A stretch of 64,000 nt of DNA. Source: Saccharopolyspora shandongensis (GTDB taxonomy: Bacteria; Actinomycetota; Actinomycetes; Mycobacteriales; Pseudonocardiaceae). Location: the NCBI RefSeq assembly GCF_900106995.1, contig NZ_FNOK01000033.1:1-64000 (forward strand), given 5' to 3'. A program made the position numbers and the translations under genes. Positions 32,275-48,484 of this stretch are shown here, piece after piece (positions within the stretch are counted from its first letter, which is position 1; the number at the start of each line of letters is the position of its first letter). The notes beneath the pieces were generated by a model. It was given only the letters and a program-made list of their open reading frames with translations, was not told the DNA's origin and made no database searches.

Positions 32275-33036
32275 TCAGGGGCGGGTTGCGTAGACTATTC
32301 TGTTGTCTATTCCTTTTGGGGCTTCTTCGGGGGTTTGGGCTCTTGCTTTGAAGCCTCTGGTCGTCAGGGTTTCTAGGACACTGTCTAGTGTGGACCTTGT
32401 TTCGTGGACCTCTATTGCTAGTTGCTTGATTCGGGGCCAGTCCTCTTCCGCTATTCCCCTCAGGGCCGCTTCTTCGCTTCCCTCGATGTCCATCTTGATC
32501 AGGTCGATCTCGACGTTCGGGGGTAGGAGGTCCGACAGCGGCGTGGTGGGGACCTGGACCGCCTCGTTTCGGTAGAGCTGTTCCGCGATCGCCGGATTCG
32601 CGTACTTCGCTACCGTTTGCTTGTCCTTGAGCTTTTCCGCCAGGTGGGCCGTCGAGTTTCCCGGCATCGACGGGAAGAAGTAGAACTCCGTCGTTCCCGG
32701 CGCGTCCGACAGGCCCGTGGGGTGGACCGTGACGCCGGAGACGTTGTGGTGGCGGAGGTTCGCTCTCAGGGCTTCGACGTTGTGCGGGATCGGTTCCACC
32801 GCCAGCACCGACGCTTCCGGGTAGTGGTGCTTGATGAACAGCGTGAACAGGCCGATGTTCGCTCCCGCGTCGACCACCAGGCCCTTCGGGTCGATCGGGG
32901 TCAGGCCGCTCAGGTAGGTGTTCCGGCCGAAGATCTCCGCGTAGATCAGCTTCGCCTCGGTCAGCACGGGGTTCCCGGTCGCCGGGGTGTAGCACTCGAA
33001 TCCCTCGGCCACCTCGACGAGGTCCAGGTCAGACAT
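32275..33036 (-). CDS. FkbM-family methyltransferase
   Basis: The 253-residue protein has the S-adenosylmethionine loop VDAGANIGLFTLFIKHH, the acidic motif VLAVEPIPHNVEAL and the FkbM-type KMDIEGSEEAALRG near residue 165-185. FkbM proteins O-methylate hydroxyl groups, often on sugars or macrolides. ATG 33036 overlaps the end of the glycosyltransferase gene by eight bases, so the two are co-translated and a sugar added by the transferase may be the methylation target. It belongs to the left edge of the thiopeptide locus, divergent from the pyridine-synthase-like gene. Role in the pathway is inferred from position only. Confidence 0.88.
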   Translation of the reverse strand: MSDLDLVEVAEGFECYTPATGNPVLTEAKLIYAEIFGRNTYLSGLTPIDPKGLVVDAGANIGLFTLFIKHHYPEASVLAVEPIPHNVEALRANLRHHNVSGVTVHPTGLSDAPGTTEFYFFPSMPGNSTAHLAEKLKDKQTVAKYANPAIAEQLYRNEAVQVPTTPLSDLLPPNVEIDLIKMDIEGSEEAALRGIAEEDWPRIKQLAIEVHETRSTLDSVLETLTTRGFKARAQTPEEAPKGIDNRIVYATRP

Positions 33037-34243
33037 CCACTCCACCCTTCGCCACCGAGCCGGGGTCGCCGGCCAGGAACTCCGTCAACGCGTCTGCGCC
33101 TCGCGCCGCCGCATCGGTGCTGCGCAGTTCTTCCCGCCAGATTGCCAAGTTGTCCCGCACGGCCCGATCCGCCGCGAGTTCTTCGACCGCCGCGCGCAGC
33201 TCCGCCGCCGTCACCGCTTCCGGGTCCACCGCTCGTCCCAAGCCCAGTTCGGCCGCGCGCCTGCCGTTGAATGCCTGTTCGGGCGTCTGCGGGAGCGACA
33301 CCAACGGGACGCCGTGCAGCAGGGATTCCATTGTGGACCCCATGCCGGTGTGCGAGACGAACGCCGATGCGTGCCGCAGCACCGCCAGCTGCGGGACTTG
33401 CTGGTGCACCTCGAAGTTCGCCGGGATCTCCGCCGGCGGGTCGGCGCGGCCGGTCGCCATGACCACGTGCCAGGGCGTGTCGGCGAACGCTTCGACGCAC
33501 ACCCGCAGCAGGTCCGGCCGGTCGTTGAACACCGTTCCCAGGGAGATGAGCAGGATCGGCGCGTCCGCGGCCGGCGGTGACCAGTCGTCCGGGCGGGCTC
33601 GTCCGGGCAGGCCCGGGCCGAGGAAGCGGAACTCCGGGCCGAACGTCTCGCCCGCGATCTGGAACTTCCGCGGCAGGAAGACCAGGTTCAGCCCGGCGCG
33701 GGCCGCGGTCGGCAGCAGCGCCTGCAGTGGCAGGCCCCGCCGGTGCGCGAATCCGGCGAGCTTCTGGCCGCTCGCGAACAGCCTCGGATCGGTGTGGTCG
33801 AGGTCGGCCGGCCACATCTGCTGCTGTAGCGAGAAGTGCTCGTTGCCGACCATGTTCGGCGCCAGGCCCACGCCCGGCACCCCGAGTTCGGCGGCGAGGG
33901 CGCGGCCGGGCAACCCCATGACGTCGAAGCACACGCAGTCCGGGCGGTCGGCCCGGAACGGGCTCGCCAGCTCGTCGTACGTCGTGATCAGCTCTTCGAT
34001 GCCCGCGTCCATCATCTTGATCATGTTCGCCGCGGTGTAGCCGCGACCCGCCAGCCCGGCCAGCTCGACGTGCCACGGCATCACCACCGGCGTCGCGCCC
34101 GCCCGCCGGACCGCCGCGGCCTGATCGCCGCCGGTCGCGTAGCTGATCCGGTGGCCGCGGGCCACCAGTTCCTCCACCAGTGGCAGCGTCGGGTTCACAT
34201 GGCCGTGCGCGGCGAGCGAGACGAACGCGAAGTGCTTGCCCAT
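33029..34243 (-). CDS. Glycosyltransferase, GT1/MGT type
   Basis: The 404-residue protein begins with the GT1 N-domain (HFAFVSLAAHGHVNPTLPLV, His in the usual catalytic place). Its C-domain donor site is FVSHTGMGSTMESLLHGVPL then SLPQTPEQAFNGRRAAELG. This is the macrolide-glycosyltransferase group (OleD/YjiC-like), which moves a sugar from a UDP- or other NDP-sugar to a natural product, either as tailoring or as self-protection. ATG 34243 was chosen over 34255 because it starts MGKHFAFVS. It is divergent from the candidate pyridine-synthase gene with about 195 bases between, so a shared promoter region is likely. Confidence 0.88.
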   Translation of the reverse strand: MGKHFAFVSLAAHGHVNPTLPLVEELVARGHRISYATGGDQAAAVRRAGATPVVMPWHVELAGLAGRGYTAANMIKMMDAGIEELITTYDELASPFRADRPDCVCFDVMGLPGRALAAELGVPGVGLAPNMVGNEHFSLQQQMWPADLDHTDPRLFASGQKLAGFAHRRGLPLQALLPTAARAGLNLVFLPRKFQIAGETFGPEFRFLGPGLPGRARPDDWSPPAADAPILLISLGTVFNDRPDLLRVCVEAFADTPWHVVMATGRADPPAEIPANFEVHQQVPQLAVLRHASAFVSHTGMGSTMESLLHGVPLVSLPQTPEQAFNGRRAAELGLGRAVDPEAVTAAELRAAVEELAADRAVRDNLAIWREELRSTDAAARGADALTEFLAGDPGSVAKGGVDV

Positions 34244-34438
34244 GATCCTCCCCATCGCCCGCGCTCGTAGCGCGCGGCGAACTCCCCGCAGTGGCCGGAA
34301 AGTCGGCGGACCGCGCCGGATCCGAGGCGGTCGACGCCGCGGAGCCTACCCGAACTTCCGCGCGGCTGTGGAGAATCTTGGACAGCATCGGAAGATTCTT
34401 GGTTGAATGCGGACCGAGCCGCGATTCAGGGGAGTGCG

Positions 34439-35539
34439 ATGAACGAGAACCAGTCCGCGCCACCGGATTCCGGAACCTGGCACGGCGTGCAGATCTACTA
34501 CGCGGCGGAGAAGGACGATCTCATCCTGGATTGCCTGCGGCCGCTGTTCGCCCGGATGCCGGCGGCCGCCGAGCGGATGTTCTTCGTCCGCCACTGGCTT
34601 CGCGGCCCGCACCTGCGGCTGTGCTTCCGCGCGCCCGAGCCGGTGTTCCGGGAGGTGATCCGGCCCGAGGTGGAGAGCGCGGCGAACCGGTACCTCGCCG
34701 AGCACCCCTCCACCGCGCGGATCGACGAACGGGAGCTGCTGGCCACCCATCGCGAAGTCGCCCGCCAGGAGCGGGAATCGGGCCCGCTGGCGCCGTTCCA
34801 CCCGGACAACTCGATCCAGCACGCGCCGCACGACCGGCGCATCCACGTGCTCGGTGGCGAGGCGGCCGCCGCGCTGCTCGAAGCCTTCTACCACGAGACC
34901 AACGAGCTGGTCTTCGAGATGCTCGACCAGGTGCGCGCCGGGCGCAGCCGGGTCGGCCTCGCCGCCGACCTCATGATCGCCACCGCGCACGCGATGTGGC
35001 CGGGCATCGACCGCGGCTTCATCTCCTACCGGTCGCACGCCGAGGGCTTCATCGTGCGTGCTCCCGACCCCGCCGCGCGGCGCGAGTTCTGCGTCCAGCA
35101 GTACCGCTCGCAGGCCGCTGTGCTGCGGGAACGGTTGGTCGGCGTGCTCGACTGCGTGGCGGGCGGCGGCACCGACGTGCCGTTCGTCGCCGAGTGGGTC
35201 CGGCTGCTGGGCCGGTTCCGCTCGACCGCCGAGCCGTTGATCGGCTCCGGCGAGCTGTCGTTCGCGGGCGCGGTCGCGCCGGACGCGGCGCAGAGCTGGG
35301 ACCCGGGCATGCTGGAGCACAGCACTTTCCACCGGTTGTTGCAGGGCGATGGCGGCCGGATGGCCGATCTGCAGCGAGATCCGGGGTTCCTCGGGTTTCG
35401 TTTCGCGCTCAACTACCTCTACCTGCACCTCAACCGGATCGGCTTGCTGCCGGTGGAGCGGTTCCTGCTCTGCCACCTCATCGCCGACGCCGTCGAGGAG
35501 CACTACGGCATCTCGGCCAACGACTTCGTCGCCTCCTGA
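34439..35539 (+). CDS. LanB-C-like protein, candidate pyridine synthase (TbtD/TclM-like)
   Basis: The 366-residue protein is of the thiopeptide-type bacteriocin family (LanB C-terminal fold): WHGVQIYYAAEKDDLILDCL, MFFVRHWLRGPHLRLCFRAP, TYPICALLY followed by a helical end LLPVERFLLCHLIADAVEEH. In thiopeptide pathways one such protein eliminates glutamate from Ser/Thr, and a second joins two dehydroalanines by [4+2] cycloaddition and releases the leader. The eliminase candidate lies next to the LanB-N gene at 45655. This stand-alone copy is therefore the better candidate for the cycloaddition enzyme. AGGGGAG precedes ATG 34439. The assignment between the two is by context, not by active-site residues. 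Confidence 0.75.
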   Translation: MNENQSAPPDSGTWHGVQIYYAAEKDDLILDCLRPLFARMPAAAERMFFVRHWLRGPHLRLCFRAPEPVFREVIRPEVESAANRYLAEHPSTARIDERELLATHREVARQERESGPLAPFHPDNSIQHAPHDRRIHVLGGEAAAALLEAFYHETNELVFEMLDQVRAGRSRVGLAADLMIATAHAMWPGIDRGFISYRSHAEGFIVRAPDPAARREFCVQQYRSQAAVLRERLVGVLDCVAGGGTDVPFVAEWVRLLGRFRSTAEPLIGSGELSFAGAVAPDAAQSWDPGMLEHSTFHRLLQGDGGRMADLQRDPGFLGFRFALNYLYLHLNRIGLLPVERFLLCHLIADAVEEHYGISANDFVAS

Positions 35540-35577
35540 TCAGTCCAATGTGGACCACTCGCTCGTGGGCGGGTGGC

Positions 35578-35583
35578 TAGGCT
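35578..35583 (+). promoter_or_regulatory. Possible -10 element of a leaderless transcript
   Basis: TAGGCT lies seven bases before GTG 35590, and no ribosome site precedes that start. Actinomycete leaderless mRNAs show exactly this spacing, so transcription of the hydrolase gene may begin at its start codon. Confidence 0.4.
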
Positions 35584-35589
35584 GGCGCC

Positions 35590-36501
35590 GTGGAGAACGC
35601 TAGCGTGGTGTCGGTTCAGGTTTCGCGTCCCGACCTGGTCGGGGTGCTGTGCAGTCCGAAGTCGCCGGGGCCGCACCCGGCCGTGCTCGTGGTCGGCGGC
35701 TCGTCCGGAGCGGTGCCCGAGCTCGTTGCCCGCCTGCTCGCCGAGCAGGGCTTCGCCGCGCTCGCCGTGGCGTGCTTCGGCGCGGCGGGGCTGCCGCGGG
35801 ATCTCATCGAGATCCCGCTCGAGTACTTCTCCGGTGCGCTGCGCTGGCTCGCCGGACGTCCCGAGGTAGACGCCGACCGGCTCGCCGTGCTCGGCCGCTC
35901 GCGCGGCGGCGAGCTCGCGTTGTTGCTGGCAGCGGCCCATCCGGAGCTGGTGCGGGCGGTGGTCGCCCACGTACCCAGCAGCGTGGCGTGGCAGGCCGTG
36001 CCGTCGGATCCCCGGGCCATGATGGCCGGCCCCCGGTCGTCGTGGAGTCGCGGCGGCGAGCCGGTCCCGTTCGTGCCCATGCTGCCGCCCAGCGCCGCCG
36101 AAATGGCCGAGTTCCAGGGCTTCCTGAGCGGTCGTCCGGTGTCGTTCCGGTCGGCGTTCGAGCGCGCCATGGGGCAGGACGAGGCCGTCGCGGCCGCCAG
36201 CATCGAGGTGGAGCGGATCAACGGGCCGGTGCTGGTGCTCAGCGGTGGCCGGGACGGGCTCTGGCCGTCCGAGCTGTTCGGTGAGCGGATCATCGCGCGG
36301 CTCGACGCGCGCGGGCACAGGTTCCCGCACCGGCACGTGTGCTACCCGGAGGCAGGTCACCTGCTGGGTGCTCCGGGTACGGCGGCGCGGCCGCGGGGCG
36401 CCGGCTTCGACCGGCTGGTGATGGGCGGTGACCCGGTGGCGGATGAGACGGCCAGTCGCGACAGCTGGCCGCACGTGCTCGAGTTCCTGTCCATCTCCTA
36501 G
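35590..36501 (+). CDS. Alpha/beta hydrolase (BAAT/dienelactone hydrolase-like)
   Basis: The 303-residue protein has the alpha/beta-hydrolase triad: nucleophile in [16 protein letters not shown] (GxSxG), Asp in [12 protein letters not shown] and His in [13 protein letters not shown]. The layout around GRSRGGE and the following helix matches the BAAT C-terminal family of acyl-CoA thioesterases and acyltransferases. In this locus it might hydrolyse an ester or trim or protect the peptide; that is a guess. It lies between the candidate pyridine synthase and the precursor gene, all in the same direction. Confidence 0.8.
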
Positions 36502-36843
36502 GTACGCCTGAGTCTCGAAAACCGTTGCCTGTTCTCATAAATCTCTCAGGAAGTCTCGGCGGCTGCCGCGGCGCGGGAGTCTAGCCGAGTGCTGGATCGC
36601 CGTCCCTGCTCTTTTCGGCGTAACCTCCCGTTAACATCTGCCGGGCGAAGGTTCTAGCGATTCTCTAGTTATTCGTTCCCTACCTGGGATTGTTGGTCCA
36701 CGGCGGAATCGCAGTACCGTTGCGCTGGACTTTTTCGTGGCATGCCAACAGATCTCGTGCTAGAACTGGGCACGTCGGCGCCGGGATCCCGGGAATTACG
36801 TTGACAAATCATCTATTCCGTTGACCAGAATGTGGGGTATGGC
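36502..36843 (+). promoter_or_regulatory. Intergenic region upstream of the precursor gene
   Basis: These 342 bases hold no gene and are richer in A and T than the flanking genes. A TTGACA at 36801-36806 could be a -35 box, but no good -10 lies at the right spacing (accaga at 36824). TTGTTGG and TTGCGC elsewhere are no better. The precursor gene very likely has its own promoter here because RiPP precursors are strongly expressed. A GGGG stretch just before ATG 36844 is the only ribosome-site candidate. Confidence 0.4.
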
Positions 36844-37017
36844 ATGGAAGATCTGAAGTTGGAGCTGGAAAGCCTGCAGGTGGAAAGCCTCGCCTTCGGC
36901 GCTGACGCGGACCGCGACCTCCAGTCCCTGGGCATGGGCCACGGGATGACCGAGGTCGGCGCTTCCGCCGGTTGCTGCTGCTGCACCTGCAGCTGCTGCT
37001 GCTGCCCGTGTGGCTGA
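36844..37017 (+). CDS. Thiopeptide-type RiPP precursor peptide, ten-cysteine core
   Basis: The 57-residue peptide has an acidic leader, MEDLKLELESLQVESLAF onward, ending GHGMTEVGA at residues 32-40. As I recall, that is the same ending as in the thiomuracin precursor. The core follows at residues 41-57: SAGCCCCTCSCCCCPCG. It has ten Cys, two Ser and one Thr. Ser41 and Ser50 (core positions 1 and 10) have the spacing that gives a 26-membered ring as in nosiheptide. Core position 2 is Ala, not Cys, as in lactazole-like cores. The Cys would become thiazoles, including two runs of four in a row. GTG 36832 is an alternative start in frame. The next genes encode the needed cyclodehydratase, dehydrogenases and dehydratase. 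Confidence 0.9.
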   Translation: MEDLKLELESLQVESLAFGADADRDLQSLGMGHGMTEVGASAGCCCCTCSCCCCPCG

Positions 37018-37393
37018 TTGGCGCCACCTGCGGAGAGCCGGGAGCTAGCGCCCTGCGCTGATCCCGACTGGCGAGTTCGCTCGTCTTCCGCATAGGCGGG
37101 CGCGGGGTTTCGTCGAGCGAAAAGCCCGGCGGGCCCCGTGCTCGTCGTGCGTCCGCCGTGATCCCGTTTGCTGCTGCCCTGGATGGACCAAGAGATGATT
37201 TCAGGATGGATTTGCGTGGCGGTGCGGGTGGCGGAACCTCAGACGCCGCCTGGACTCCGGGATCCCCGACTTGTGTATGCCCAATACGCGGCGCTGGGGC
37301 TGTCCTCGCCAGACGACGTCTGAGAACCCGCGGCGGTGCGAGCTGAGTCCCACACCGCATGCGGCTGACGCCGCATTCTGAAAGGACCCCTTA
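37018..37393. other. Gap between precursor and modification operon
   Basis: No gene is seen in these 376 bases. They hold a copy of an intergenic repeat (37207-37350), and GAAAGGA just before GTG 37394. The gap could attenuate or separate transcription, so that the precursor is expressed more strongly than the enzymes. Confidence 0.5.
37207..37350. repeat. Intergenic repeat, copy 1
   Basis: Blocks TTTGCGTGGCGGTGCGGGTG, GGGATCCCCGACT, GGGGCTGTCCTCGC and GAACCCGCGGCGGTGC occur here in the same order as in copy 2 at 48208-48365, with variable sequence between. The two copies bracket the modification operon. A stem CCCCGAC...GGGG is possible in the centre. I do not know the element; it may be a genus-wide intergenic repeat or a structured RNA. 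Confidence 0.7.
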
Positions 37394-39445
37394 GTGAAGC
37401 CGAAGCTCAAGAACGACACGCTGTACCTCCCCTCCGCGGAGGGGATCTACTTCGTGAGCAACCACGGAACGTTGACGCTGGACGGCAAGCACATCTACCA
37501 GTGGGTGGACAAGCTCGCCCCGTTCCTCACCGGTGCGCACACGCTCGACGAGATCACCGCGAGCCTGTCCGAGGACCGCAAGCGCATGGTGGTCGGGTTG
37601 ATCGGCGGGCTGGTCCAGAAGGGCTTCATCAAGGACGTCGGCGACGACCGTCCACATGGGCTCGACGACGGCGTGCTCGCCGCGTACGAGTCCGAGATCG
37701 CGTTCATCGACTACTACCGGGACTCGGCCGCGCACCGCTTCCAGCAGTTCCGGGAGAGCAAGGTGCTGCTGGTCGGCGCCGGTCAGACCGCACTCGCGCT
37801 CGCGCAGGCCTGCCTGCACGCCGGGCTGCTCGAAGTGCACGTCGCGATCACCGACGAGGCCGCCACCGACCGGTCGCGCCTCGACACCTACCTGTCGCAC
37901 GCCCGCGAGCGCGACTCGGCGCAGTCGATCGTCGAGCACCGCGCCGCCGTCGACGGTCCGGTCGAGGAGTGCAAGGCGGCGCTGGGCTCGTTCGACGCCG
38001 TCATCCACGTTTCCGACAAGCCGATGCTCGACCGCGCGCGGCGGCTGAACCGGGCCTGCGCCGATCTCGGCACTCTGTTCGTCCAGGCCGTTGTGGACGG
38101 TGACGAGGCGTGGATCGGGCCGCTGGTGGCGCCGGGCGACGACGTGTGCTGGGAATGCGCGCGGCTGCGGGTGCTGGGCAGGCGCGAAGGCGCCGAGTTC
38201 GCCGACCGGCCCGACGCGACGCCCAGCGAGTTCCTGGCCGGTCCGACCGCCGCGATCGTGGCCAACCAGCTGTCGTTCGAGGTGTTCAAGCACCGCACCG
38301 AGGCCGGGCCGGTGGAGACGGCGGGCGCGCTGGTGCGGCTGGACCTGGAGACCCTGCAGAGCTCGAACCACCCGGTCACCCGGCATCCGCTGTGCACCGC
38401 GCACGGCGACCCGGAGCCGCGCGGTGAAGCGGAGTTCCTGGCCGCAGTAAGCGAACTCGCGGCCGGTCCGGAGATCACCGGCGAGGAGTTCTCGGCCGCC
38501 GCGGCCGCCTGCTTCGAGCCGTCGACCGGCCTGCTGGCCAGCCTGGACGAGGGGGACTTCGGGCAGCTGCCGTTGAAGGTGTCGCGCGCCGAGTACGCGA
38601 ACGTGCTGCTGCTGCCGGACTTTGAGCGGGAGAGCGCGGCGGCCGTCGAGGTGGCCACCGACTTCACCGAAGCCCGCGAGCGCGCTACGCGCCGGGCCTG
38701 CGAGCTCTACGCGGCCAGCGCGGTCGACCGGCGCCGGTTGAGCGGTTCGGACGAGCCGCGCACCTGGGGCCTGGACCTGATCACCGGGGCGGCGCGTTCG
38801 CTACCCGCCGCCGACGTCTTCCCCGCCCTGCGCGGGGTGCTGCCGCACGCGACGGACCTGCCCGGTCTCGCCTCCGGCTCCACCTGGGCCGAGGCCGTCG
38901 GCCGCGGCCTGCTGGCGCTGGCCGACCGGATCACCGTCGCGGAGGTCGCCGAGTCGGTGCGCCCGGCCGTCGACCCCGCTGCCGCTCCGCGCACCGAGCG
39001 CGCGGAGCGCTACTGGAAGATGCTCGACATCGTCGGCGTCGAGGTCGCGATCCACGACATCACCGGCTCGCTCGGCGTGCCGACCTTCGCGGCCTGCGTC
39101 GGAGCGGAAACCGTCGGCTGCGCTTCGGGATTCGACATCGGTCAGGCGATCGAAGAGGCGCTGGAGCAGGCGCTGCGGCACCACCAGGCGCAGGCCGGCG
39201 AGTGGCCCGGCTACGCGACCGCCCGGACCGCGCACCTGCCCGAGCTGCCGCCGGAGCTGCGCGGCCCGCAGACGGCAATCGCCGCCGCAGAGCAGCCGGG
39301 CGGCTGGCCCGAGGTCCAGGAGCTCCTGCTGAGCCGCCTGGGCGGCGCCGGGCACCGGCCCGTCGCCGTGCCGCTGGACCACGACCCGGTGCTGAACCGG
39401 GTGCTGCCCTACATCGTCAACGTCGTGCTCGGAGAAGAGAACTAG
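37394..39445 (+). CDS. ThiF-like/RRE cyclodehydratase partner (TbtF-like)
   Basis: The 683-residue protein starts with a wing-helix leader-binding domain (RRE, residues about 10-85; EGIYFVSNHGTLTLDGKHIY). A ThiF/E1-like Rossmann domain follows (KVLLVGAGQTALALAQACLH) with the zinc Cys pair CWEC in VCWECARLRVLG. It is of the 'thiazole-containing bacteriocin maturation protein' type, close in role to TbtF. It binds the leader and presents the core to the YcaO enzyme for cyclisation of Cys. GTG 37394 has GAAAGGA upstream. Its stop overlaps the next start by one base (TAGTG), so the two subunits are coupled. Confidence 0.88.
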   Translation: MKPKLKNDTLYLPSAEGIYFVSNHGTLTLDGKHIYQWVDKLAPFLTGAHTLDEITASLSEDRKRMVVGLIGGLVQKGFIKDVGDDRPHGLDDGVLAAYESEIAFIDYYRDSAAHRFQQFRESKVLLVGAGQTALALAQACLHAGLLEVHVAITDEAATDRSRLDTYLSHARERDSAQSIVEHRAAVDGPVEECKAALGSFDAVIHVSDKPMLDRARRLNRACADLGTLFVQAVVDGDEAWIGPLVAPGDDVCWECARLRVLGRREGAEFADRPDATPSEFLAGPTAAIVANQLSFEVFKHRTEAGPVETAGALVRLDLETLQSSNHPVTRHPLCTAHGDPEPRGEAEFLAAVSELAAGPEITGEEFSAAAAACFEPSTGLLASLDEGDFGQLPLKVSRAEYANVLLLPDFERESAAAVEVATDFTEARERATRRACELYAASAVDRRRLSGSDEPRTWGLDLITGAARSLPAADVFPALRGVLPHATDLPGLASGSTWAEAVGRGLLALADRITVAEVAESVRPAVDPAAAPRTERAERYWKMLDIVGVEVAIHDITGSLGVPTFAACVGAETVGCASGFDIGQAIEEALEQALRHHQAQAGEWPGYATARTAHLPELPPELRGPQTAIAAAEQPGGWPEVQELLLSRLGGAGHRPVAVPLDHDPVLNRVLPYIVNVVLGEEN

Positions 39446-41439
39446 TGGCCGAAGACGTGCACAAGGCAACCGGCGCGACCATCCGGGTCGGCATCGCGGG
39501 CGAGGGCGCGCTCCACGCGGCGACGTGGCGCGAGGTGTCCCGGCGGTACGCGGTGGTGGACGCCGAGACCGAATCCGAAGTGGACATCGTGCTGCTCGTC
39601 GAGGACGGCTGGGACCGGCAGCGGCACCGGCGGTGGAGCGATCGGTCGCGTGCCGACGGGATTCCACTGCTGCCGGCCTACGTCACGCCCGGTGCGGCAC
39701 TCATCGGCCCGTTTCTGTCCACTCTGGACGAAGGTTGTCTGGAGTGCGTGGAGCAGCGCCGCCTGCGCGCCCGCAACGACGGCACCGACTACGCCAAGGT
39801 CCTGGAAGCCCATCCCGAGCGGATGGCGTCGATCGGCGGGCAGTGGCTGACCGCGTTCGCCGTGGACCTGCTCAGCACGTTGATCGCGCGGGAGGTCGAC
39901 CGGTTCGCCGCCGACCCGGCGACGCCGAGCACCCGCGGCGGGCTCATCCGCCTCTCCCTGGACGACCTGCGCACCAGCACGCACGGCTGGCTGCCTGATC
40001 CGCTGTGCGACCGGTGCGGCCGGCTGCCGCTGGACACCCGGGAGGGCGCGGAGATCGAGCTGCAGCACCGGCCGAAGGCCTCCGTCGACGGCTACAGGGT
40101 CCGTTCCCTGGCGGGCGAGCACGACCGGCTGCGCGACGTCTACGTCGACTCCGAAGCCGGGTTGCTGCGCGCCGTCTACAAGGAAGGACGCAGCGTCTTC
40201 CCGAGTTCGAGCGCGCCGATGGGGCTGCGGGCCACCACCCGCACCGAGGTCGGCTACGGGCACCAGCTCGACTTCTCCGCCAGCCAGCTGACCGCCATCG
40301 CCGAGGGCATCGAGCGCTACGGCGGCATCGAGCCGGGCGGCAAGCGGACAGCGGTCCGTGCGAGCTATAACGAGCTGGGACCGGATGCGCTGGACCCCAC
40401 CACGCTGGGCCTGCACACCGACGAGCTCTACAGCCGGCCGGGCTTCCCGTACCCGCGCTACCACCACGACCTGACCTTCAACTGGGTGTGGGGCCACTCC
40501 TTCGCCCGGCAGCGGCCGATCCTGGTGCCGGAGAACTACGCCTACTACGGCACCGTCTACCGCAACACCCGGGACCACCCGTTCGTCTACGAGATCTCCA
40601 ACGGCTGCGCCCTGGGCGGCTGCCTGGAGGAGGCGATCCTGCACGGCATCCTGGAGGTCGCCGAGCGGGACGCGTTCCTGATGACCTGGTACGCCCAGCT
40701 CTCGGTGCCGAGGATCGATCCGCGATCCGCGCCGAACCCCGAGGTGCCGCTGATCATCGAGCACATCGAGAGCTTCTCCGGCTACTCGATCGAGGTCTTC
40801 AACATCACCATGGAGCAGGGCGTGCCGTGCTTCTGGGTGCTGGCGGTGGACCGCCGGGGCATGCCCGACATGCCCAAGGTGCTGTGCGCCTCCGGCTCGA
40901 ACCTGAACCCGGAGAAGGCGCTGATCAGCGCGTTGATGGAGCTGGGGCCGCTGGTGAGCAGGCCGCCGGAGTTCCACCGGCAGAACCGGCCGCGGGTGGA
41001 GGAGATGCTCGCCGATCCCGACGCGGTGGTGTCGATGGAGGACCACGCCGCGCTCAACGGCGCGCCGGAGGTCTTCGACCGGTTCGACTTCCTGCTGAAC
41101 GGGTCGCCGGTCCGGCAGACCTTCGCCGAGGCGTTCAAGGACTACTACCAGAAGCCGAAGAACGCGGACCTGCGCGACGACCTGTCGGAGACGCTGCAGC
41201 AGTACCTGCGCACCGGGCTGGACGTCGTCGTGGTCGACCAGACCACGCCGGAGCACCGGGCGGGCGACTTCGCCTGCGTCAAGGTGATCATCCCCGGCTG
41301 CCTGCCGATGACCTTCGGGCACCTGCGGCGCCGCGACCGGGGTTTCGAGCGTCTGCACCGGATTCCGCACGAGCTCGGCTACCGGGACCGGCCGCTGACC
41401 GATGCCGACATCAACCCGCACCCGCACCCCTTCCCGTGA
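39445..41439 (+). CDS. YcaO-domain azoline cyclodehydratase (TbtG-like)
   Basis: The 664-residue protein has an N-terminal partner-like domain with zinc ligands (DEGCLECVEQRRL, LPDPLCDRCGRLPLDT) and a C-terminal YcaO domain. The ATP-binding acidic residues are in LTAIAEGIERYGG and in EEAILHGILEVAERDAFLM, and it ends NPHPHPFP, the PxPxP tail typical of active enzymes. It would use ATP to cyclise Cys (and possibly Thr/Ser) to azolines. GTG 39445 overlaps the preceding TAG, with GGAGAAGAG upstream. A longer frame to 39202 overlaps the partner gene and was rejected. Confidence 0.93.
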   Translation: MAEDVHKATGATIRVGIAGEGALHAATWREVSRRYAVVDAETESEVDIVLLVEDGWDRQRHRRWSDRSRADGIPLLPAYVTPGAALIGPFLSTLDEGCLECVEQRRLRARNDGTDYAKVLEAHPERMASIGGQWLTAFAVDLLSTLIAREVDRFAADPATPSTRGGLIRLSLDDLRTSTHGWLPDPLCDRCGRLPLDTREGAEIELQHRPKASVDGYRVRSLAGEHDRLRDVYVDSEAGLLRAVYKEGRSVFPSSSAPMGLRATTRTEVGYGHQLDFSASQLTAIAEGIERYGGIEPGGKRTAVRASYNELGPDALDPTTLGLHTDELYSRPGFPYPRYHHDLTFNWVWGHSFARQRPILVPENYAYYGTVYRNTRDHPFVYEISNGCALGGCLEEAILHGILEVAERDAFLMTWYAQLSVPRIDPRSAPNPEVPLIIEHIESFSGYSIEVFNITMEQGVPCFWVLAVDRRGMPDMPKVLCASGSNLNPEKALISALMELGPLVSRPPEFHRQNRPRVEEMLADPDAVVSMEDHAALNGAPEVFDRFDFLLNGSPVRQTFAEAFKDYYQKPKNADLRDDLSETLQQYLRTGLDVVVVDQTTPEHRAGDFACVKVIIPGCLPMTFGHLRRRDRGFERLHRIPHELGYRDRPLTDADINPHPHPFP

Positions 41440-41458
41440 CGCGGGCGCTGGAGGTTCA

Positions 41459-43021
41459 ATGGGCAACTGGGACCTGGACATCGGCGAGCACTACCTGCGC
41501 CGCACGGTGCACGAGGCCGAGGAACTCTTCGCGCAGGTGCTCGGCGAGGAGCCGATCGGCGCCGATCCGCTGCCGTTCAAGATCTACCGGGACGTGCCGC
41601 GGCATCGGCTGCCCGGCGCGCTGCCGCTGGAGATCGGCGATGCGCGCAGCGCCTTCGCCGACTTCGCCGCGCCCGAGCCGGCTCGGCGCGAGCCGGAGCA
41701 GCTGCTGTCGGCATTGCTGTACTACGGCTACGGATTCTCCCGCTGGGACGAGGGGCCGGGAGCGGTCTGGCCGTACCACCGGATGGTGCCGTCGGCCCGG
41801 TGCTACTTCCCGACCGAGCTCTACCTGTGGATGCCCCGCACCGGCGAGGTCCCGGCGGGGATCTACCACTACGACACCCTGCACCACTCCCTGGCGCTGA
41901 TCCGGGAAGGCGACTTCCGCGTGGAGCTGGGCCGGTTGCTGGGCGCGGACGTCGACGACGTGCACAGCGTGCTGCTGCTGTCGTCGCTGTTCTGGAAGAA
42001 CGCCTTCAAGTACCGGGGTTACTCCTACCGCCTGTGCGCCCAGGAAGCGGGCATGGTGGCCGGGAACCTGCTGATGGTCGCCGGCGCGCTGGGGCTGCGC
42101 GGCGAGGTGGGCTTCCAGTTCGCCGACCGCCGCGCCGGACGGCTGCTCGGCCTGGTGGATTCCGAGGAGCACCTGTTCGCGGCGCTGCCGCTGCGCCGGG
42201 ACGGATCGGTCGCCGAACCGGCGCCGGACGTTGCGGTCCCGCCGGTTTCGCACCGCTACGTCCGGCCCGAGGGGGACGTGCACCCGCACGATGCGCTGTT
42301 CACCTCGATCGCCGAGAACTCCCTGCTGGACGACGTGGATGAGGGCGCCCGCCAGCTCCCGGTGTCTCGCCGCTGCGACAGCGGCGAGACACCGACGCTG
42401 CCGATGCCGCCCGCGCGGCGCGAACCGATCGGCCTCGGCGCGACGTTGCGGGCACGCAACTCCGGCAACGTGCTGTTCAACCCGATCGCCAAGACGCTGC
42501 CGCTGGCCGATCTCTGGGAGATCGTGCGGTACGCGACCGATCCGTACCGCAGCGATCTGCGCGACGGGGTCGCCGAGCCGGGGGTGAGCCTGCACGTCGT
42601 GGCGCTGGACGTGGCCGGCCTGGCGAAAGGCGTCTACCGGTTCTGCCGGGAGCACGCCGGCCTGCACCTGGTCGCCGAAGGCGACTTCTCCCGGCCGCTG
42701 CAGGGCACCCTGCCGGTGCCGAACCTGAACCTGTGCGCGTCCAACGCGGTCCTGTACCTGGCCGCGGACCACGCCGAGGCCAGCCGCACCTTCGGCAACC
42801 GCGCCTACCGGCTGATCAACCTCGAAGCCGGGATCGTCGCGCAGCGGCTCTGCGTGCTCAGCGCCGCGCACGGCCTGGCCGCTCGTGTCCACAATGGATA
42901 TGACGCGGCCGGTGTCGAGTCGATCCTGCGGCTGGACGAGGCGAAGCTGACCCCGTTCTTCCAGATCGCGATCGCGCACAACCGGCCGGGGGTCCAGCAC
43001 GGGCTCCCGGTCGTCTTCTGA
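41459..43021 (+). CDS. SagB-type azoline dehydrogenase 1 (tandem nitroreductase fold)
   Basis: The 520-residue protein has two nitroreductase-like halves. The first carries PSARCYFPTELYLWMP, GIYHYDTLHHSLALIREGDF and SLFWKNAFKYRGYSYRLCAQ, and the second GVYRFCREHAGLHLVAEGDF, then LEAGIVAQRLCVLSAAHGLA. These are the FMN-binding and active-site blocks of TOMM dehydrogenases such as McbC, SagB and TbtE, which oxidise thiazolines to thiazoles. ATG 41459 has GGAGG upstream. It follows the YcaO gene directly. A second, clearly different copy is at 46638. Confidence 0.9.
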   Translation: MGNWDLDIGEHYLRRTVHEAEELFAQVLGEEPIGADPLPFKIYRDVPRHRLPGALPLEIGDARSAFADFAAPEPARREPEQLLSALLYYGYGFSRWDEGPGAVWPYHRMVPSARCYFPTELYLWMPRTGEVPAGIYHYDTLHHSLALIREGDFRVELGRLLGADVDDVHSVLLLSSLFWKNAFKYRGYSYRLCAQEAGMVAGNLLMVAGALGLRGEVGFQFADRRAGRLLGLVDSEEHLFAALPLRRDGSVAEPAPDVAVPPVSHRYVRPEGDVHPHDALFTSIAENSLLDDVDEGARQLPVSRRCDSGETPTLPMPPARREPIGLGATLRARNSGNVLFNPIAKTLPLADLWEIVRYATDPYRSDLRDGVAEPGVSLHVVALDVAGLAKGVYRFCREHAGLHLVAEGDFSRPLQGTLPVPNLNLCASNAVLYLAADHAEASRTFGNRAYRLINLEAGIVAQRLCVLSAAHGLAARVHNGYDAAGVESILRLDEAKLTPFFQIAIAHNRPGVQHGLPVVF

Positions 43022-43037
43022 GGTGGGACGGGAGCCG

Positions 43038-45662
43038 ATGACATACCGCGTCGAACCGGCCTTCGCGGTGCGCGTGGCCGGAATGCCGCTGGCCTTCCTC
43101 CGGCGGCTGCGCACCGAGCGCACCGCCGAACTCGTCGAGCAGATCCTCGATGCGGATCAATGGCTTTCAGAGCACGGCGACGCGCTCTCCGATGCGCTGC
43201 ACGACGTCGTCGGTCGCACCACCGACACCGGCCTGCGGAGGCGGCTCATCAACCTGCGCCGCGACGTGTTCCAAGGCAGGCAGCCCCGATCCGGCGTCGA
43301 CGACGAACTGCTGACCCAGCTGCCCGCGGAGCTGGCCGAGGCGCTCACCGACTGGCAGCGCCGCGTCCACGAGCGCGGTGCGCTGATCGTCGCCGCCGAG
43401 GCGGAACTGCCCGCGGAAGTGGCGCGGCAGCGGCACGCCGTGCACGAGCTGGCCGCCGACCCGGCCTTCCAGCGCGGCCTGGTGCTGGCCAGCCGGGATC
43501 TCTACCTCAGCCTCCGCAAGGCGTCGCCGGACCAGCCGGATCGCAAGCTGGAGCGCAAGCTCGCCAAGTACCTCTCGCGCACCGCGGCCAAGACCAGCCC
43601 GTACAGCACGTTCACCGGCTTCGCGGAGGGCCGGTGGACCGACGATGGCCCGCAGCTGCACTACGCGGGCGGCTCGCGCCGCAGCGTCGTCGAACTGAAC
43701 GCCTTCACCCAGCAGCAGATCCCGCGTGCGCTGGCGGGCTGGCCGGAGATCCGGCCGCACCTACCGCTGGCGGTCAACACCAGCGTGGTCGAGGACGGCA
43801 AAGTGCTGCGGTTCCTCGGGCACAAGGACGGCGAAGCCGTGCTGGAACTGGCGAACACCCCGACGCTGCAACGCTTCCTGCGGGAGATCCGACACGGCGC
43901 CGACCGGACCTACCGCGGCGTGGTGGGTGCGCTGGCCGGGATGGACCGGGAGGATCGCAGCGCGCAGATCGCGGGATTCCTCGACCAGCTCATCGACATC
44001 GGCCTGGTCGAGATCGGTTTTGGCATACCGGACAACGAGACCGACCACCTCGGCAGGCTCGCCGCGGAGCTGGCGGGCTTCCCCGGCGACCGCGTCGCCG
44101 ACGTCCGGGCCACACTGCTGGCGCTGCGCGACGATCTGGAGACCTACGGGCGGCTCGACGCTCCCGAGAGCCGGTTCGAGCAGACCGCCGTGGTCACCGA
44201 CCGGCTCCGGCAGGTCTACGCCCGGCTCGGCTGGGACGACTCGGGCGCGGAGTTCCCGAAGCAGGTGTTCTACGAGGACGTGCTGATCACCGGCGGCGCG
44301 GTGACCGGCCGGCTGGAATCCTGGCGCGGGCTGTTCGACCAGCTCGAACTCGTGCGGCGGATGGCCGGGCTGTACGACCGGTTCCTGCCCGGCCGCATCG
44401 CCGCCGAGGCGTTCTTCGCCGACCGCTACGGCGCCGGCGCCCAGATCCCGTTCCTGGACTTCTACCGAGACTTCGGCCGGGCGGCGGGCAATCCGGCGGA
44501 CACCGGCAGCCGGGTCAGCGGGGCGGACCTGGCGACCTGCTACGAGCGGGCGTTCCCGGTCCCGCAGATCGGCCTGGAGCGGCTGGATCGGCTGGCCGCC
44601 CTGCAGCAGCGGTTGGTCGCCGCGGTGGCCGAAGCGCCGGTCGACGATGCCGGGGTGCGGCACCTGTCGTCGCGAGCCATCGGCGAATTCCTCGACCAGT
44701 TACCGGATTTCGTGTCGCCGATCGAATCGGTCGCCTGCTACCTGCAGCCGATCGCCGGTGACCGGCCGCGCGCCGTGCTGAACGAGCTGATGACGGGATC
44801 CGGCCGCAGCCGGGCCCGCCTGCTTCGGCTCGGGCGGCGCACCGGCGGCGAGGCCTTCGCACCGCCCGAGGCCGCCACCGCGCCCCGGCGGTACGCCGAG
44901 ATCACTGGGACCGTCGGCTCGAACCTCAACCTCAAGCACCCGCTGACCCACTTCGAGATCAGCTACCCGGCGAGCACCAGCGACCGGCCACCGGACCGGC
45001 GGCTGGCGCTCAGCGACCTCCTGGTCGTGCACGACCCCGGTGCCGGGGTGTTGCGGCTGGTCTCGAAGGGCCACGGCGTGGAGATCATGCCCGTGCACCT
45101 GGGCGTGATGGTCGAGTTCCTGCTGCCACCCGCGTACCGGTTCCTCATCCAGATGTTCGGCCAGGCCGTGCCGCGCTTCGAGTTCATCAAGCAGCTGTCC
45201 ACCGCCGCCCCCGCGGACGAGGTGGACGGCGTCCGCCGGTATCCGCGCCTGGCGCTGGGTGACCTGGTGCTCAACCGCGCGGCGTGGGTGGTGCCCAGCG
45301 GGCTGCTGCCCAGGCGCGCCGCCGGCGGCTCGGCGCTGGAGCACCTGATCGAGGTGAACCGCTGGCGGCGCCGCCACGGGATCCCGCAGCAGTGCTTCGT
45401 CCGCGCCGTCGCCGGGCACGGCAACGCCTCGCAGCGGTCCCGTGTGGACGGTCTGTTCGACAAGACGCGCAAGCCCGTTTACCTGGACTTCGGCAGCGAA
45501 CTGTTCGGCCACGTCTTCGAGGAGGTCGCCGCGAGCACCGACCAGCTGCTGGTCTTCGAGGAGATGCTGCCGGGACCGCAGGACCTGGTACCCGGCGAGG
45601 AGGACGGCGCTCGCGCCACGGAGCTGGTGGTCGAGCTGACGCAGGCAGGACGCGATGACTGA
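43038..45662 (+). CDS. Class I lantibiotic dehydratase, N-terminal glutamylation domain (TbtB-like)
   Basis: The 874-residue protein is a LanB-N enzyme: KLAKYLSRTAAKTSPYSTFT (the RxxxR...TP-x-G-x-F type start), a long central part, and VYLDFGSELFGHVFEEVAAS at the end. LanB-N enzymes transfer glutamate from glutamyl-tRNA to Ser/Thr. The elimination half is the separate next gene, as in thiopeptide systems. ATG 43038 is preferred over GTG 43023 because GGGAG lies just before it. The gene has one TTA codon (44700-44702, in FLDQLPDF), so its translation may depend on the bldA tRNA. Confidence 0.92.
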   Translation: MTYRVEPAFAVRVAGMPLAFLRRLRTERTAELVEQILDADQWLSEHGDALSDALHDVVGRTTDTGLRRRLINLRRDVFQGRQPRSGVDDELLTQLPAELAEALTDWQRRVHERGALIVAAEAELPAEVARQRHAVHELAADPAFQRGLVLASRDLYLSLRKASPDQPDRKLERKLAKYLSRTAAKTSPYSTFTGFAEGRWTDDGPQLHYAGGSRRSVVELNAFTQQQIPRALAGWPEIRPHLPLAVNTSVVEDGKVLRFLGHKDGEAVLELANTPTLQRFLREIRHGADRTYRGVVGALAGMDREDRSAQIAGFLDQLIDIGLVEIGFGIPDNETDHLGRLAAELAGFPGDRVADVRATLLALRDDLETYGRLDAPESRFEQTAVVTDRLRQVYARLGWDDSGAEFPKQVFYEDVLITGGAVTGRLESWRGLFDQLELVRRMAGLYDRFLPGRIAAEAFFADRYGAGAQIPFLDFYRDFGRAAGNPADTGSRVSGADLATCYERAFPVPQIGLERLDRLAALQQRLVAAVAEAPVDDAGVRHLSSRAIGEFLDQLPDFVSPIESVACYLQPIAGDRPRAVLNELMTGSGRSRARLLRLGRRTGGEAFAPPEAATAPRRYAEITGTVGSNLNLKHPLTHFEISYPASTSDRPPDRRLALSDLLVVHDPGAGVLRLVSKGHGVEIMPVHLGVMVEFLLPPAYRFLIQMFGQAVPRFEFIKQLSTAAPADEVDGVRRYPRLALGDLVLNRAAWVVPSGLLPRRAAGGSALEHLIEVNRWRRRHGIPQQCFVRAVAGHGNASQRSRVDGLFDKTRKPVYLDFGSELFGHVFEEVAASTDQLLVFEEMLPGPQDLVPGEEDGARATELVVELTQAGRDD

Positions 45663-46641
45663 AGCGCAGTGGATCAGCGTGCACATCCACTACCACGATC
45701 CGCTGGAGGCGGTCGTCACCGGCGCGGTCCGGCCGCTGGTGGCGGAGCTGGGCGGCGGACTCGACGGGCACTTCTTCGTGCGGCACTGGCAGGCGGGCCC
45801 GCACCTGCGGCTCCGGGTGAAACCTCGTTCGCCCGGCGACGCCGACAAGGTCCTCGAACTCCTCGACCGGCGGGTGGGGGAGTTCCTCCGCGACCGCCCG
45901 TCCCGCGCGACCGTCACCGAGCAGGACTACCGCGAGGTGGCCGATCCGCTGGTGGGGATCGAGCGGGGCCAGCACGAGGCCGAACCGCTGCAACCGAACA
46001 ACACCGTGCGGCACGTGCCCTACGAACCGGAATACGCGCGCTACGGCGGCACTCCCGAGGCCATGGGCGTCGTCGAACGGCACTTCGCCGAGTCCAGCGA
46101 GCTGGTGGCCGACCTGCTGGCGCAGGGCCCGACCGGCGATCAGCGCACCGGGCAGGCGCTGGCGATGATGCTGGTCTGCGCGATGACCGCGGCAGGCGGC
46201 TCCGACGGCCTGGCCGACTACCTCGGCACCGGTCACCGCGACTGGGGGCGACGGCTGGTGTTCGGCGATCCGGACGCCGCCGAGACCCACTTCGAGGCGA
46301 AGTACCAGCGGCAGCGGGATCGGCTGCTCGGCGTCGTCGAAGGGCTGGTCCGGGCGGTCGACTCCGGCGCCACCGAGCGCGCTGGAGCCGCGGTGGCGCG
46401 GTGGGCCGGCGCGACCACGACCCTGCGTGACGAGTTGCGGCTGCTCCGGGAGGGCGGCCGGTTCGAGGTGCAGGACGTGCTGATGCCGCCGCAGCGGCAC
46501 CGCGAGGCCGAACTCGCCAGCGTGCTGCTGTTCTGCTCGCACATGAACAACAACCGGCTGGGCATCTCGCTCCCGGAGGAGTCCTACCTGATGTACCTGC
46601 TGTGGCGGGCGGTTTCCGAGATCACCGGGAGTGCGAGTTGA
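45655..46641 (+). CDS. LanB C-terminal elimination-type protein (TbtC-like)
   Basis: The 328-residue protein belongs to the SpaB_C/thiopeptide-type bacteriocin family: WISVHIHYHDPLEAVVTGAV, GHFFVRHWQAGPHLRLRVKP and SVLLFCSHMNNNRLGISLPE. Positioned right after the LanB-N gene, with which it overlaps by eight bases, it is the natural candidate for glutamate elimination, giving dehydroalanine from Ser1 and Ser10 of the core and possibly dehydrobutyrine from Thr8. It resembles the protein at 34439 but is shorter. The roles of the two could be swapped. Confidence 0.85.
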   Translation: MTEAQWISVHIHYHDPLEAVVTGAVRPLVAELGGGLDGHFFVRHWQAGPHLRLRVKPRSPGDADKVLELLDRRVGEFLRDRPSRATVTEQDYREVADPLVGIERGQHEAEPLQPNNTVRHVPYEPEYARYGGTPEAMGVVERHFAESSELVADLLAQGPTGDQRTGQALAMMLVCAMTAAGGSDGLADYLGTGHRDWGRRLVFGDPDAAETHFEAKYQRQRDRLLGVVEGLVRAVDSGATERAGAAVARWAGATTTLRDELRLLREGGRFEVQDVLMPPQRHREAELASVLLFCSHMNNNRLGISLPEESYLMYLLWRAVSEITGSAS

Positions 46642-48188
46642 ACACCGAGCAGTCGGCCGCGAGCGCCCGCAAGTACCTGGCACTGGCCGAGGGCATGCCG
46701 ATTCCCGAGGAGATCGACTGGGGCGATTCGCCGACCCAGTTCAAGGTCTACCGGGACAAGCCGCGGATTCCGCTGGGCTACCGGACGACGCCGACCGCCG
46801 AGGCATCGCCCACCGATCGGCTCGGGCAACTCCTGCTGGACTGCTACGGGGTGACCCGCTACCGGTGGACGACGGCCGACGCGCTGCGCCGGTTGATCGG
46901 CACCCGGGGAGCGGAGCCCGGCGGCGGCGCGAAGCTCGCCAGGAACGCGTTGCGGCCGGTGCCGTCCGGCGGTTCGCGGTTCCCCGCCGAGCTGTACGTG
47001 GTGGCCGGCCCCGGCAGCGGCGCTCCGCCCGGCGTTTACCACTACGACGCCGCGCACCACTCGCTGGTGACGTTGCGGGACGGCGACTGGACGCCCGAAC
47101 TGGCCGCCGGGCTGGGCGGCGAGCGTTCGGAGCTGACGCTGCTGACGACCGCGTTCTTCTGGAAGAACGCGTTCAAGTACGGCGACGTGACGTACCGGCT
47201 GTGCGGCCTGGACATCGGTGTCCTCATCGGACAGATCCTCGCCGTGGCCGCGCGCGAGCAGACCGAGGCGAGGGTGCGGTACCAGTTCGCCGACGACACC
47301 CTGGACGGCCTGCTGCGGCTCGACCCGATGCGGGAAAGCGTCTACGCCGCAATAGCTCTCGGCCCCGTCGAACGCACCTCGGGCGGATCGCGCCCCGTCA
47401 CGGGCGCGGAGCGCCCGCGGACCGGCTCGGGTTCGGTGGCGGAGCGGGACTGGTCGATCGCGACATTGCCGCTGCAAGCCGAGGTGCACCAGGCGTCCAG
47501 GCGCGCCGCGTCGCCGCCGGAGGCAGGCGCCAAACCGGAGATCAGTGCCTCGGGCGTGCCCGGCGGGGGAACGGTGGCACTGCCCGGCCGCCGGGTCGAC
47601 CCGCTCGGCGGGTTGCGGGCCCGGCGTTCCTCGATGGGCTACTTCACCCCGTCCGACCTGGGCCAGGACGCGCTGGCGGCGCTGCTCGCGGCGGCGGCAG
47701 AGGGCTACCGGAACGATCTCGACGGGCCGTCACCCGCGGTCCGGCACACCGCACTCCTCTGCGCGGTGAACCGGGTTTCCGGCCTGGAGCCCGGCGTCTA
47801 CCGCTACCGGCCGGAGCGCGCTGACCTGGAGCTCGTGCGCGCCGCGCCCGGAATCGGCGGCGAACTCCAGGAGGCGCTGCTGATCAAGCTCTTCAACCTC
47901 ACCCACACGAACCTGTGCATCTACCCGGTGGGCGAGTACGAGAGCGGCTTCCGCGCGCACGGCGACCGCTGGTACCGGATGCAGAACATGGAAGCCGGAA
48001 TCCTGACGCAGCGGCTCTACCTGGCCGCGGCGGCGCTCGGGCTGCGCTGCCACGCCAGCCTCGGCTACCACGTGCCGCAGACCAACCGCCTGCTCGGAAT
48101 CGACGGAACGGGCCTCACCAGCCTGCTCCAGGTGATGATCGGCTCCGGCCGCGCACCAGGAGACTTCTACGAGGCGGGCTGGCATTAA
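46638..48188 (+). CDS. SagB-type azoline dehydrogenase 2 (tandem nitroreductase fold)
   Basis: The 516-residue protein is a second double-domain TOMM dehydrogenase: PSGGSRFPAELYVVAGPG, GVYHYDAAHHSLVTLRDGDW and TAFFWKNAFKYGDVTYRLCG in the first half, then GVYRYRPERADLELV and YRMQNMEAGILTQRLYLAAA in the second. A Pro/Ala/Gly-rich linker of about 80 residues joins the halves. TTG 46638 overlaps the previous stop (TTGA), with GGGAG six bases upstream; a GTG at 46602 is less likely. Two dehydrogenases in one cluster is unusual. They may act on different cysteines or form a heteromer. Confidence 0.87.
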   Translation: MNTEQSAASARKYLALAEGMPIPEEIDWGDSPTQFKVYRDKPRIPLGYRTTPTAEASPTDRLGQLLLDCYGVTRYRWTTADALRRLIGTRGAEPGGGAKLARNALRPVPSGGSRFPAELYVVAGPGSGAPPGVYHYDAAHHSLVTLRDGDWTPELAAGLGGERSELTLLTTAFFWKNAFKYGDVTYRLCGLDIGVLIGQILAVAAREQTEARVRYQFADDTLDGLLRLDPMRESVYAAIALGPVERTSGGSRPVTGAERPRTGSGSVAERDWSIATLPLQAEVHQASRRAASPPEAGAKPEISASGVPGGGTVALPGRRVDPLGGLRARRSSMGYFTPSDLGQDALAALLAAAAEGYRNDLDGPSPAVRHTALLCAVNRVSGLEPGVYRYRPERADLELVRAAPGIGGELQEALLIKLFNLTHTNLCIYPVGEYESGFRAHGDRWYRMQNMEAGILTQRLYLAAAALGLRCHASLGYHVPQTNRLLGIDGTGLTSLLQVMIGSGRAPGDFYEAGWH

Positions 48189-48207
48189 GACTGTTTACCG
48201 GGCCCGT

Positions 48208-48365
48208 TTTGCGTGGCGGTGCGAGTAGCGGCCCCCCGCGGGAGTTGCTGTCGCCTTCTCGCTGTGGGATCCCCGACTCATGAATGCCAATTCACCACGT
48301 CGGGGCTGTCCTCGCTGGGAGAACCCCGGAGGGGTGGGCACCGTGAACCCGCGGCGGTGCAAGTT
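48208..48365. repeat. Intergenic repeat, copy 2
   Basis: This copy repeats the blocks of the element at 37207 (TTTGCGTGGCGGTGCGAGTA, GGGATCCCCGACT, CGGGGCTGTCCTCGC, GAACCCGCGGCGGTGC). It has a perfect 7-base stem CCCCGAC...GTCGGGG in its middle. It sits just after the last gene of the operon, and the flanking 48189-48484 holds no gene. Confidence 0.7.
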
Positions 48366-48484
48366 GCGAGGGTGGGCTAAGCGCCTTCGCCGCTTCAAAA
48401 ACCCGCCCTACCGCATTCCAGCACGTCCAAGATGACTCCTCGACCCGGGAGCGGTGGGTGCGCCGCCGCTCCCGGGGACCGAAG

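Follow-up and report, generated by a model that had tools for sequence, protein, structure and literature searches.

A conserved thirteen-gene cluster with a ten-cysteine precursor peptide in Saccharopolyspora shandongensis and its predicted thiopeptide product

Gene content of the locus

The first 64,000 nucleotides of contig NZ_FNOK01000033.1 of Saccharopolyspora shandongensis (this whole stretch of DNA being referred to here as the window) contain a cluster of thiopeptide-type genes around a short open reading frame (ORF) at 36844 to 37017. A sequence-only reading of the window had proposed this ORF as the precursor gene, and this was borne out, as it has an ATG start and encodes a 57 amino acid peptide (MEDLKLELESLQVESLAFGADADRDLQSLGMGHGMTEVGASAGCCCCTCSCCCCPCG) which scored 31.2 bits against NF033399, the NCBIfam model of the thiomuracin/GE37468 precursor family (cut-off 29); the precursors of two relatives scored 33.5 and 30.1 bits. 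Residues 1-40 form the leader and residues 41-57 the 17-residue core (SAGCCCCTCSCCCCPCG), which has ten cysteines, serine solely at positions 1 and 10 (i to i+9) and no asparagine. The leader end GHGMTEVGA had been taken for thiomuracin-type, which agrees with the NF033399 match, though the Ser1-Ser10 spacing is that of a 26-membered ring and not of thiomuracin's 29-membered ring. A precursor search of the window's own genome returned a single match, the precursor itself.

A database search found the identical core in five further genomes. In all six loci the following thirteen genes were linked, and the conserved block spans positions 32275 to 50711 of the window:

32275..33045, - strand, FkbM-family methyltransferase (TIGR01444, 101.2 bits, cut-off 37.7)
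33029..34255, - strand, MGT-family (macrolide-type) glycosyltransferase, OleI-like (TIGR01426, 343.5 bits, cut-off 260)
34439..35539, + strand, TbtD/PbtD-type pyridine synthase (NF045556, 463 bits, equivalog cut-off 325; one clade)
35590..36501, + strand, BAAT_C/dienelactone-hydrolase-like alpha/beta hydrolase (PF08840, 101.7 bits)
36844..37017, + strand, precursor peptide
37394..39445, + strand, TbtF-like ocin-ThiF partner that binds the leader, its C-terminal part weakly resembling YcaO (ThiF and TIGR03882 above cut-off)
39445..41439, + strand, TbtG-like YcaO cyclodehydratase (PF02624, 278 bits; TIGR03604, 359 bits, cut-off 219)
41402..43021, + strand, SagB-type azoline dehydrogenase 1, TbtE-like, its real start possibly further in (TIGR03605, 144 bits, cut-off 78)
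43023..45662, + strand, TbtB-like LanB-N glutamyl transferase (PF04738, 136.9 bits)
45655..46641, + strand, TbtC-like LanB-C glutamate eliminase, PF14028 (TIGR03891, 79 bits, cut-off 48)
46602..48188, + strand, SagB-type dehydrogenase 2 (TIGR03605, 154.8 bits, cut-off 78)
48485..49765, - strand, flavin adenine dinucleotide (FAD)-dependent monooxygenase, FAD_binding_3 (PF01494, 76 bits, cut-off 22)
50043..50711, + strand, class I S-adenosylmethionine methyltransferase, Methyltransf_11 (PF08241, 85.8 bits)

Judged by sequence, this is a full thiopeptide set, with a pyridine synthase, ThiF, YcaO and dehydrogenase proteins, a split LanB and a core with two serines. Every enzyme of the list first drawn up (ThiF/RRE partner, YcaO, dehydrogenases, LanB-N and two LanB-C-like proteins) was recovered with Pfam and NCBIfam profiles, although the two LanB-C-like proteins now differ in rank: the one at 34439-35539 is refined to a pyridine synthase at equivalog level, and the one at 45655-46641 stands as a TbtC-like eliminase, being read in this way because it scored 149 bits against NF045556, below the cut-off of 325. 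The best solved relatives of the pyridine synthase were TbtD (5wa3, E 9.3e-65) and PbtD, and in an alignment of 35 such proteins every column that is at least 93% conserved was matched by the window protein. For the LanB-N protein the best solved relative was 6ec7 (E 1.7e-85), which we take to be TbtB, with a goadsporin protein as a distant second match. The protein at 37394-39445 scored 199 bits against TIGR03693, under the cut-off of 561.9. Among solved structures the glycosyltransferase was nearest to 2iya, an OleI-type oleandomycin glycosyltransferase, and it passed the general MGT family model but reached 245 bits against the NCBIfam OleI self-immunity model, far under its cut-off of 700. 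The FAD monooxygenase had 4hb9, AbsH3 and Tet(X)-type proteins as its nearest solved chains, and for the methyltransferase at 50043-50711 none of the 25 NCBIfam models shown was above cut-off.

The cluster had at first been delimited as 34439 to 48188, which lies inside the conserved block but is too narrow, as two more genes to the left (the FkbM methyltransferase and the OleI-like glycosyltransferase) and two to the right (the FAD monooxygenase and the class I methyltransferase) belong to it in all six loci. In genome G007 the first two genes, and in G004 dehydrogenase 2, escaped the simple gene caller and were recovered by tblastn. Between hydrolase and precursor, G178 has a second glycosyltransferase-like gene (28% identical to the first) and G007 a fragment that by eye is transposase-like.

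Conservation and distribution of the cluster

The identical core is carried by the window's genome (G000), G004 and G007, all of one genus, by G178, whose genus is a different one in that family, and by the congeneric G719 and G722 from a second family. G719 is Couchioplanes caeruleus subsp. azureus JCM 3246 (Micromonosporaceae), and a separate scan of DNA met the same precursor on its contig NZ_BMQY01000005.1. For the 15 pairs of loci there were no non-synonymous and 0-6 synonymous codon differences in the core (stop codon included), as against 1 to 10 non-synonymous differences in the 40 codons of the leader. Six enzymes that were compared were 55-77% identical between lineages and 93-97% identical between G000 and G004. 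The core is not a chance sequence, because it is identical in five more genomes whose leaders and enzymes have diverged. With codons assumed to change independently at the leader rate, the chance of 17 unchanged codons was 0.013 for G000-G719 and 0.0075 for G178-G719, these pairs not being independent of each other.

Although G000 and G007 are of the same genus and their EF-Tu proteins are 98% identical, their pyridine synthases are 65% identical, a distance like that across families. Judging by these comparisons, transfer between hosts is the probable history of the cluster, its core staying fixed. In a tree of 35 pyridine synthases the six form one clade with a support of 1.0, the inner branching being partly poor (0.41).

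Among the genomes searched with it, the pyridine synthase was present with at least 60% identity along most of the protein in six (the window's included), which are the same six that carry the core, and the other listed matches were at most 45% identical. The genome sets that were searched overlap, and those of the order, the class and the family of G1157 were even draws from these groups. Pyridine synthase matches occurred in 3 of 22 genomes of the genus (E at most 1e-30), 28 of 390 of the family (E at most 1e-20), 13 of 354 of the family of G506 (E at most 1e-40) and, counting the window's own, 4 of 397 of the order (E at most 1e-60); the family of G1157 gave matches in 29 of 200 genomes, none of them above 45% identity. 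The precursor was matched (E at most 0.001) in 4 of 394 genomes of the class, one being the window's own and the remaining three carrying other cores. In a plasmid collection the precursor had no match, and seven records matched the pyridine synthase or LanB-C, the best full-length one with 39% identity over 94%. A scan of genome contigs with a loose DNA pattern for the core gave at least 118 stretches, and further carriers may exist; among the matches listed, the only translated stretch ending within 40 codons that had a thiopeptide leader was L117; L155 is of another known peptide kind, and the others look by eye like repeats or wrong-frame chance.

In G719 and G722 the block has rpoC on one side and a small gene on the other, beyond which lie rpsL, rpsG, fusA and tuf (L188, L189, L204, L206). 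In four of their kin (G714, G720, G723 and G506) rpoC is followed by the small gene within about 0.5 to 1.3 kb, and four block genes sought at this rpoC-rpsL site gave no match there. The ends of the insertion in G719 and G722 coincide with the conserved set, which is good evidence that the thirteen genes form one unit. The proposal that one product is made by one gene set was strengthened, all 13 genes being together in each of the six loci and a leader-motif scan finding one precursor-like ORF in each. As a separate observation, the block in G719 and G722 separates two essential operons, of transcription and of translation.

Predicted product and alternatives

In the thiopeptide pathway as outlined in PMC7136475, cysteines become thiazoles, serines are turned into dehydroalanines through glutamylation followed by elimination, and two dehydroalanines are united in an aza-Diels-Alder step, with release of the leader in most cases. 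Here the ThiF/YcaO pair and the two dehydrogenases would convert the majority, or even all, of the ten cysteines in the core to thiazoles, LanB-N and LanB-C would turn Ser1 and Ser10 into dehydroalanines, and the TbtD-type enzyme would build the pyridine from these, closing a 26-membered ring and releasing the leader. The pyridine should join residues 1 and 10 because they are the only serines, and the ring counted by hand (2 backbone atoms plus 3 for each of residues 2-9, 2 + 8 x 3) has 26 atoms. The product would then have a ring tetrathiazole from C4 to C7, thiazole 9 on the pyridine, a tail tetrathiazole from C11 to C14 and a terminal Pro-Cys-Gly, with the Ala2 side of the pyridine being free of an azole. 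The FAD monooxygenase, the two methyltransferases and the OleI-like glycosyltransferase probably serve for hydroxylation, methylation and glycosylation at sites that are a guess. For the product with ten thiazoles and Thr8 intact, before tailoring, a neutral mass of 1334.0266 was calculated; the arithmetic was checked on micrococcin P1, for which it gave 1143.2101 against 1143.2100 from the formula.

Residue 8 bears a side group in nosiheptide and in thiostrepton. PMC11406533 describes an added indolic acid on residue 8 (Ser8) of persiathiacin and nocathiacin, and reports that PerS4 adds glucose to nosiheptide, tentatively at the hydroxylated pyridine. As a guess, the candidate sites for a sugar here would be Thr8 or a hydroxylated pyridine. 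We consider it very likely that the product is a thiopeptide with a Ser1-Ser10 pyridine ring, made from one precursor by the 13-gene cluster; the predicted full count of ten thiazoles has an even chance of being right, and for the predicted glycosylation of the product the balance is equally level.

The cluster resembles those of thiomuracin, GE37468 and GE2270 (tbt, get, pbt) in its TbtB-TbtG set, its NF045556 pyridine synthase and its NF033399-family precursor with the leader end GHGMTEVGA, but it differs from the thiomuracin group in its ten cysteines, a ring of 26 rather than 29 atoms, the lack of asparagine, two dehydrogenases and a glycosyltransferase, and it has Ala2 where thiomuracin has Cys2 (compare L053). 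In its Ser1-Ser10 spacing it is like the 26-membered group of micrococcin/thiocillin, nosiheptide, thiostrepton and persiathiacin. A C-x-C-S run at the second serine is present in micrococcin/thiocillin, nosiheptide and thiostrepton too. The persiathiacin core (SCTTCECSCSCSS) likewise has such a run before and at the second serine (PMC11406533). Unlike these 26-membered ribosome binders, however, the core starts with SAGCC and not SCTTC and has far more cysteines, and no TSNR_N protein above cut-off was found in 17 genomes. Both ring sizes already mix in this enzyme family, because at locus L054 the leader is of thiomuracin type and the core (SCTTCVCVCSCCTS) is that of a 26-membered ring.

Cyclothiazomycin is also a thiazole-rich pyridine thiopeptide, and it has a poly-Cys tail as here, the core pattern being otherwise without a match. 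Its tail, though, is linked back to the macrocycle (PMC3917276). Lactazole shares the unmodified residue 2 (Trp2 there, Ala2 here), which PMC7210931 terms unusual, but differs in its 32-membered ring, low content of cysteine, serine and threonine and five enzymes (same source). Pyritides have a pyridine synthase and split LanB in common with this cluster; they are described in PMC9247985 as pyridine macrocycles without azole enzymes of their own, whereas here a YcaO protein and two dehydrogenases are present.

The same pathway might convert only part of the cysteines to thiazoles, leaving a thiol (for example that of Cys16 after Pro15) free or added to a dehydrated Thr8 to give a second ring such as PMC3917276 describes for cyclothiazomycin. 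Thr8 is conserved and dehydratable and two dehydrogenases do not ensure oxidation at all ten sites, but the cluster contains no recognisable dedicated gene for a thioether bridge and its YcaO/dehydrogenase set is complete, and we regard this outcome as unlikely but worth keeping in mind. There is a slim chance that the product is a thiazole-rich peptide which is already known but was never linked to its genes. Saramycetin might be thought of, although it has a Val-derived thiazole, which is absent from this core. PMC3917276 calls it an antifungal thiopeptide and incompletely characterised, but no link of this core or of Couchioplanes to a thiopeptide compound was found in open-licence literature. 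That the cluster is decayed or silent, with its conservation reflecting recent shared ancestry, would fit the close kinship of G000 and G004; it is made very improbable by the 13 window ORFs, all of which are open, and by the four independent lineages which keep the exact core with synonymous changes although their enzymes are 55-77% identical. Barely credible is a goadsporin-like linear azole peptide with the TbtD-like protein serving another role. Split LanB and azole enzymes occur in goadsporin-type clusters too, and a goadsporin protein was the distant second match of LanB-N, but a linear azole peptide would go with a locus that has no pyridine synthase, and at 463 bits the one here is far above its equivalog cut-off, keeps the conserved columns and is present in all six loci.

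Several points weigh against the predicted thiopeptide with a Ser1-Ser10 ring. The precursor scored 22.4 bits against Pfam Thiopep_pre, slightly under the cut-off of 23.5, and for two nearer pairs the chance of an unchanged core was 0.10 to 0.17, which is of modest significance, the distant pairs alone giving a clear result. The block has no conserved exporter or pathway regulator and no conserved gene that is recognisable as a resistance gene, and a BTAD-type regulator at 51139-51963 is common only to the window and G004. Furthermore, four linked thiazoles within a 26-membered ring would be strained, and we know of no precedent for them.

The core had also been called apparently undescribed by the sequence-only reading, and a description of a peptide with this core was not found in open-licence full-text literature (searched for core pieces, for Couchioplanes and Pseudonocardia thiopeptides and for polythiazole thiopeptides). 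As a compound it is probably undescribed, its novelty being probable rather than proven.

Target and self-protection

The product is probably an antibiotic. Thiopeptides with 26-membered rings are described as binding the L11/23S region and those with 29-membered rings, with a conserved asparagine, as binding EF-Tu (PMC3917276, PMC7136475). With its second serine at position 10, where a 29-membered ring would have it at position 11, and no asparagine, the core lacks these features of the 29-membered EF-Tu group, and by analogy the 26-membered ring suggests an L11/23S target. The core opens with SAGCC where persiathiacin has SCTTC, however, and the SCTTC positions are presumably the usual L11/23S contact residues, also in other ribosome binders. 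Promothiocin B is reported as active although it is without the conserved ring residues (PMC3917276).

TSNR_N, the domain of the 23S A1067 methyltransferase, was above cut-off in none of 17 genomes, the six presumed producers among them, and sub-threshold matches were seen in three cluster-free kin (G001, G005 and G010). This methyltransferase is a common, though not universal, means of self-resistance in the 26-membered group. Glycosylation by the OleI-like enzyme may plausibly serve for self-protection.

It is possible, and we put it forward tentatively at somewhat less than evens, that the cluster represents a new thiopeptide subclass. Its product would have a 26-membered ring and as many as ten thiazoles, two tetrathiazole runs among them, and would be modified by hydroxylation, methylation and glycosylation; without either the EF-Tu asparagine or the usual L11/23S contacts, it would act on a known target bound in a new way or on a new target, with protection by the OleI-like glycosyltransferase rather than by rRNA methylation. 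If this were true, a fixed target would be reflected in the constancy of the core in two bacterial families. New thiopeptide scaffolds are wanted as antibiotics, and in this cluster thiomuracin-type machinery is coupled with a 26-membered ring, an extreme number of cysteines and a compact tailoring set that is seemingly mobile as a unit. Since six genomes share the same core and one of these belongs to a named collection strain, the mass of the product is directly searchable, and the product would test whether the target of a thiopeptide is set by ring size alone.

Two further ideas on self-resistance were rejected. A resistant EF-Tu, with EF-Tu as the target, was discarded in the Micromonosporaceae as no alignment column set the two producers apart from five kin; of the other two groups, one (three producers against three kin) had 5 separating columns and the other (one producer against three kin) had 20, and the motif at the known contact sites was unmatched in several sequences. 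A second EF-Tu is present in G722 and four cluster-free congeners but not in G719, and it is not a trait of the cluster. Among 14 genomes, a duplicate ATP synthase subunit a occurred solely in the closely related G000 and G004, the four other producers having one copy, and it is not in the conserved block; in the window the second gene, at 31425-32108, adjoins the block, as also in G004, and the start regions of the copies differ.

A CGTGyTAGrAA-like stretch at 36756-36765, about 80-90 bases upstream of the precursor, looks kept in all six loci and is perhaps a promoter element. Among the other loci met in the survey, L037, L038, L039, L041 and L044 are TbtD loci where a thiomuracin-like leader is joined to a long core, rich in Gly, Ser and Cys, that does not resemble classical thiopeptides. 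L042, L043, L045, L049, L050 and L052 are TbtD loci whose cores are short and either Asp/Cys-rich or of a Cys/Trp kind, with leaders of the type VETIGVVPA...; these loci are perhaps pyritide-like. Locus L155 contains three short Cys-run peptides, and the one that was examined matches the NCBIfam streptolysin S family.

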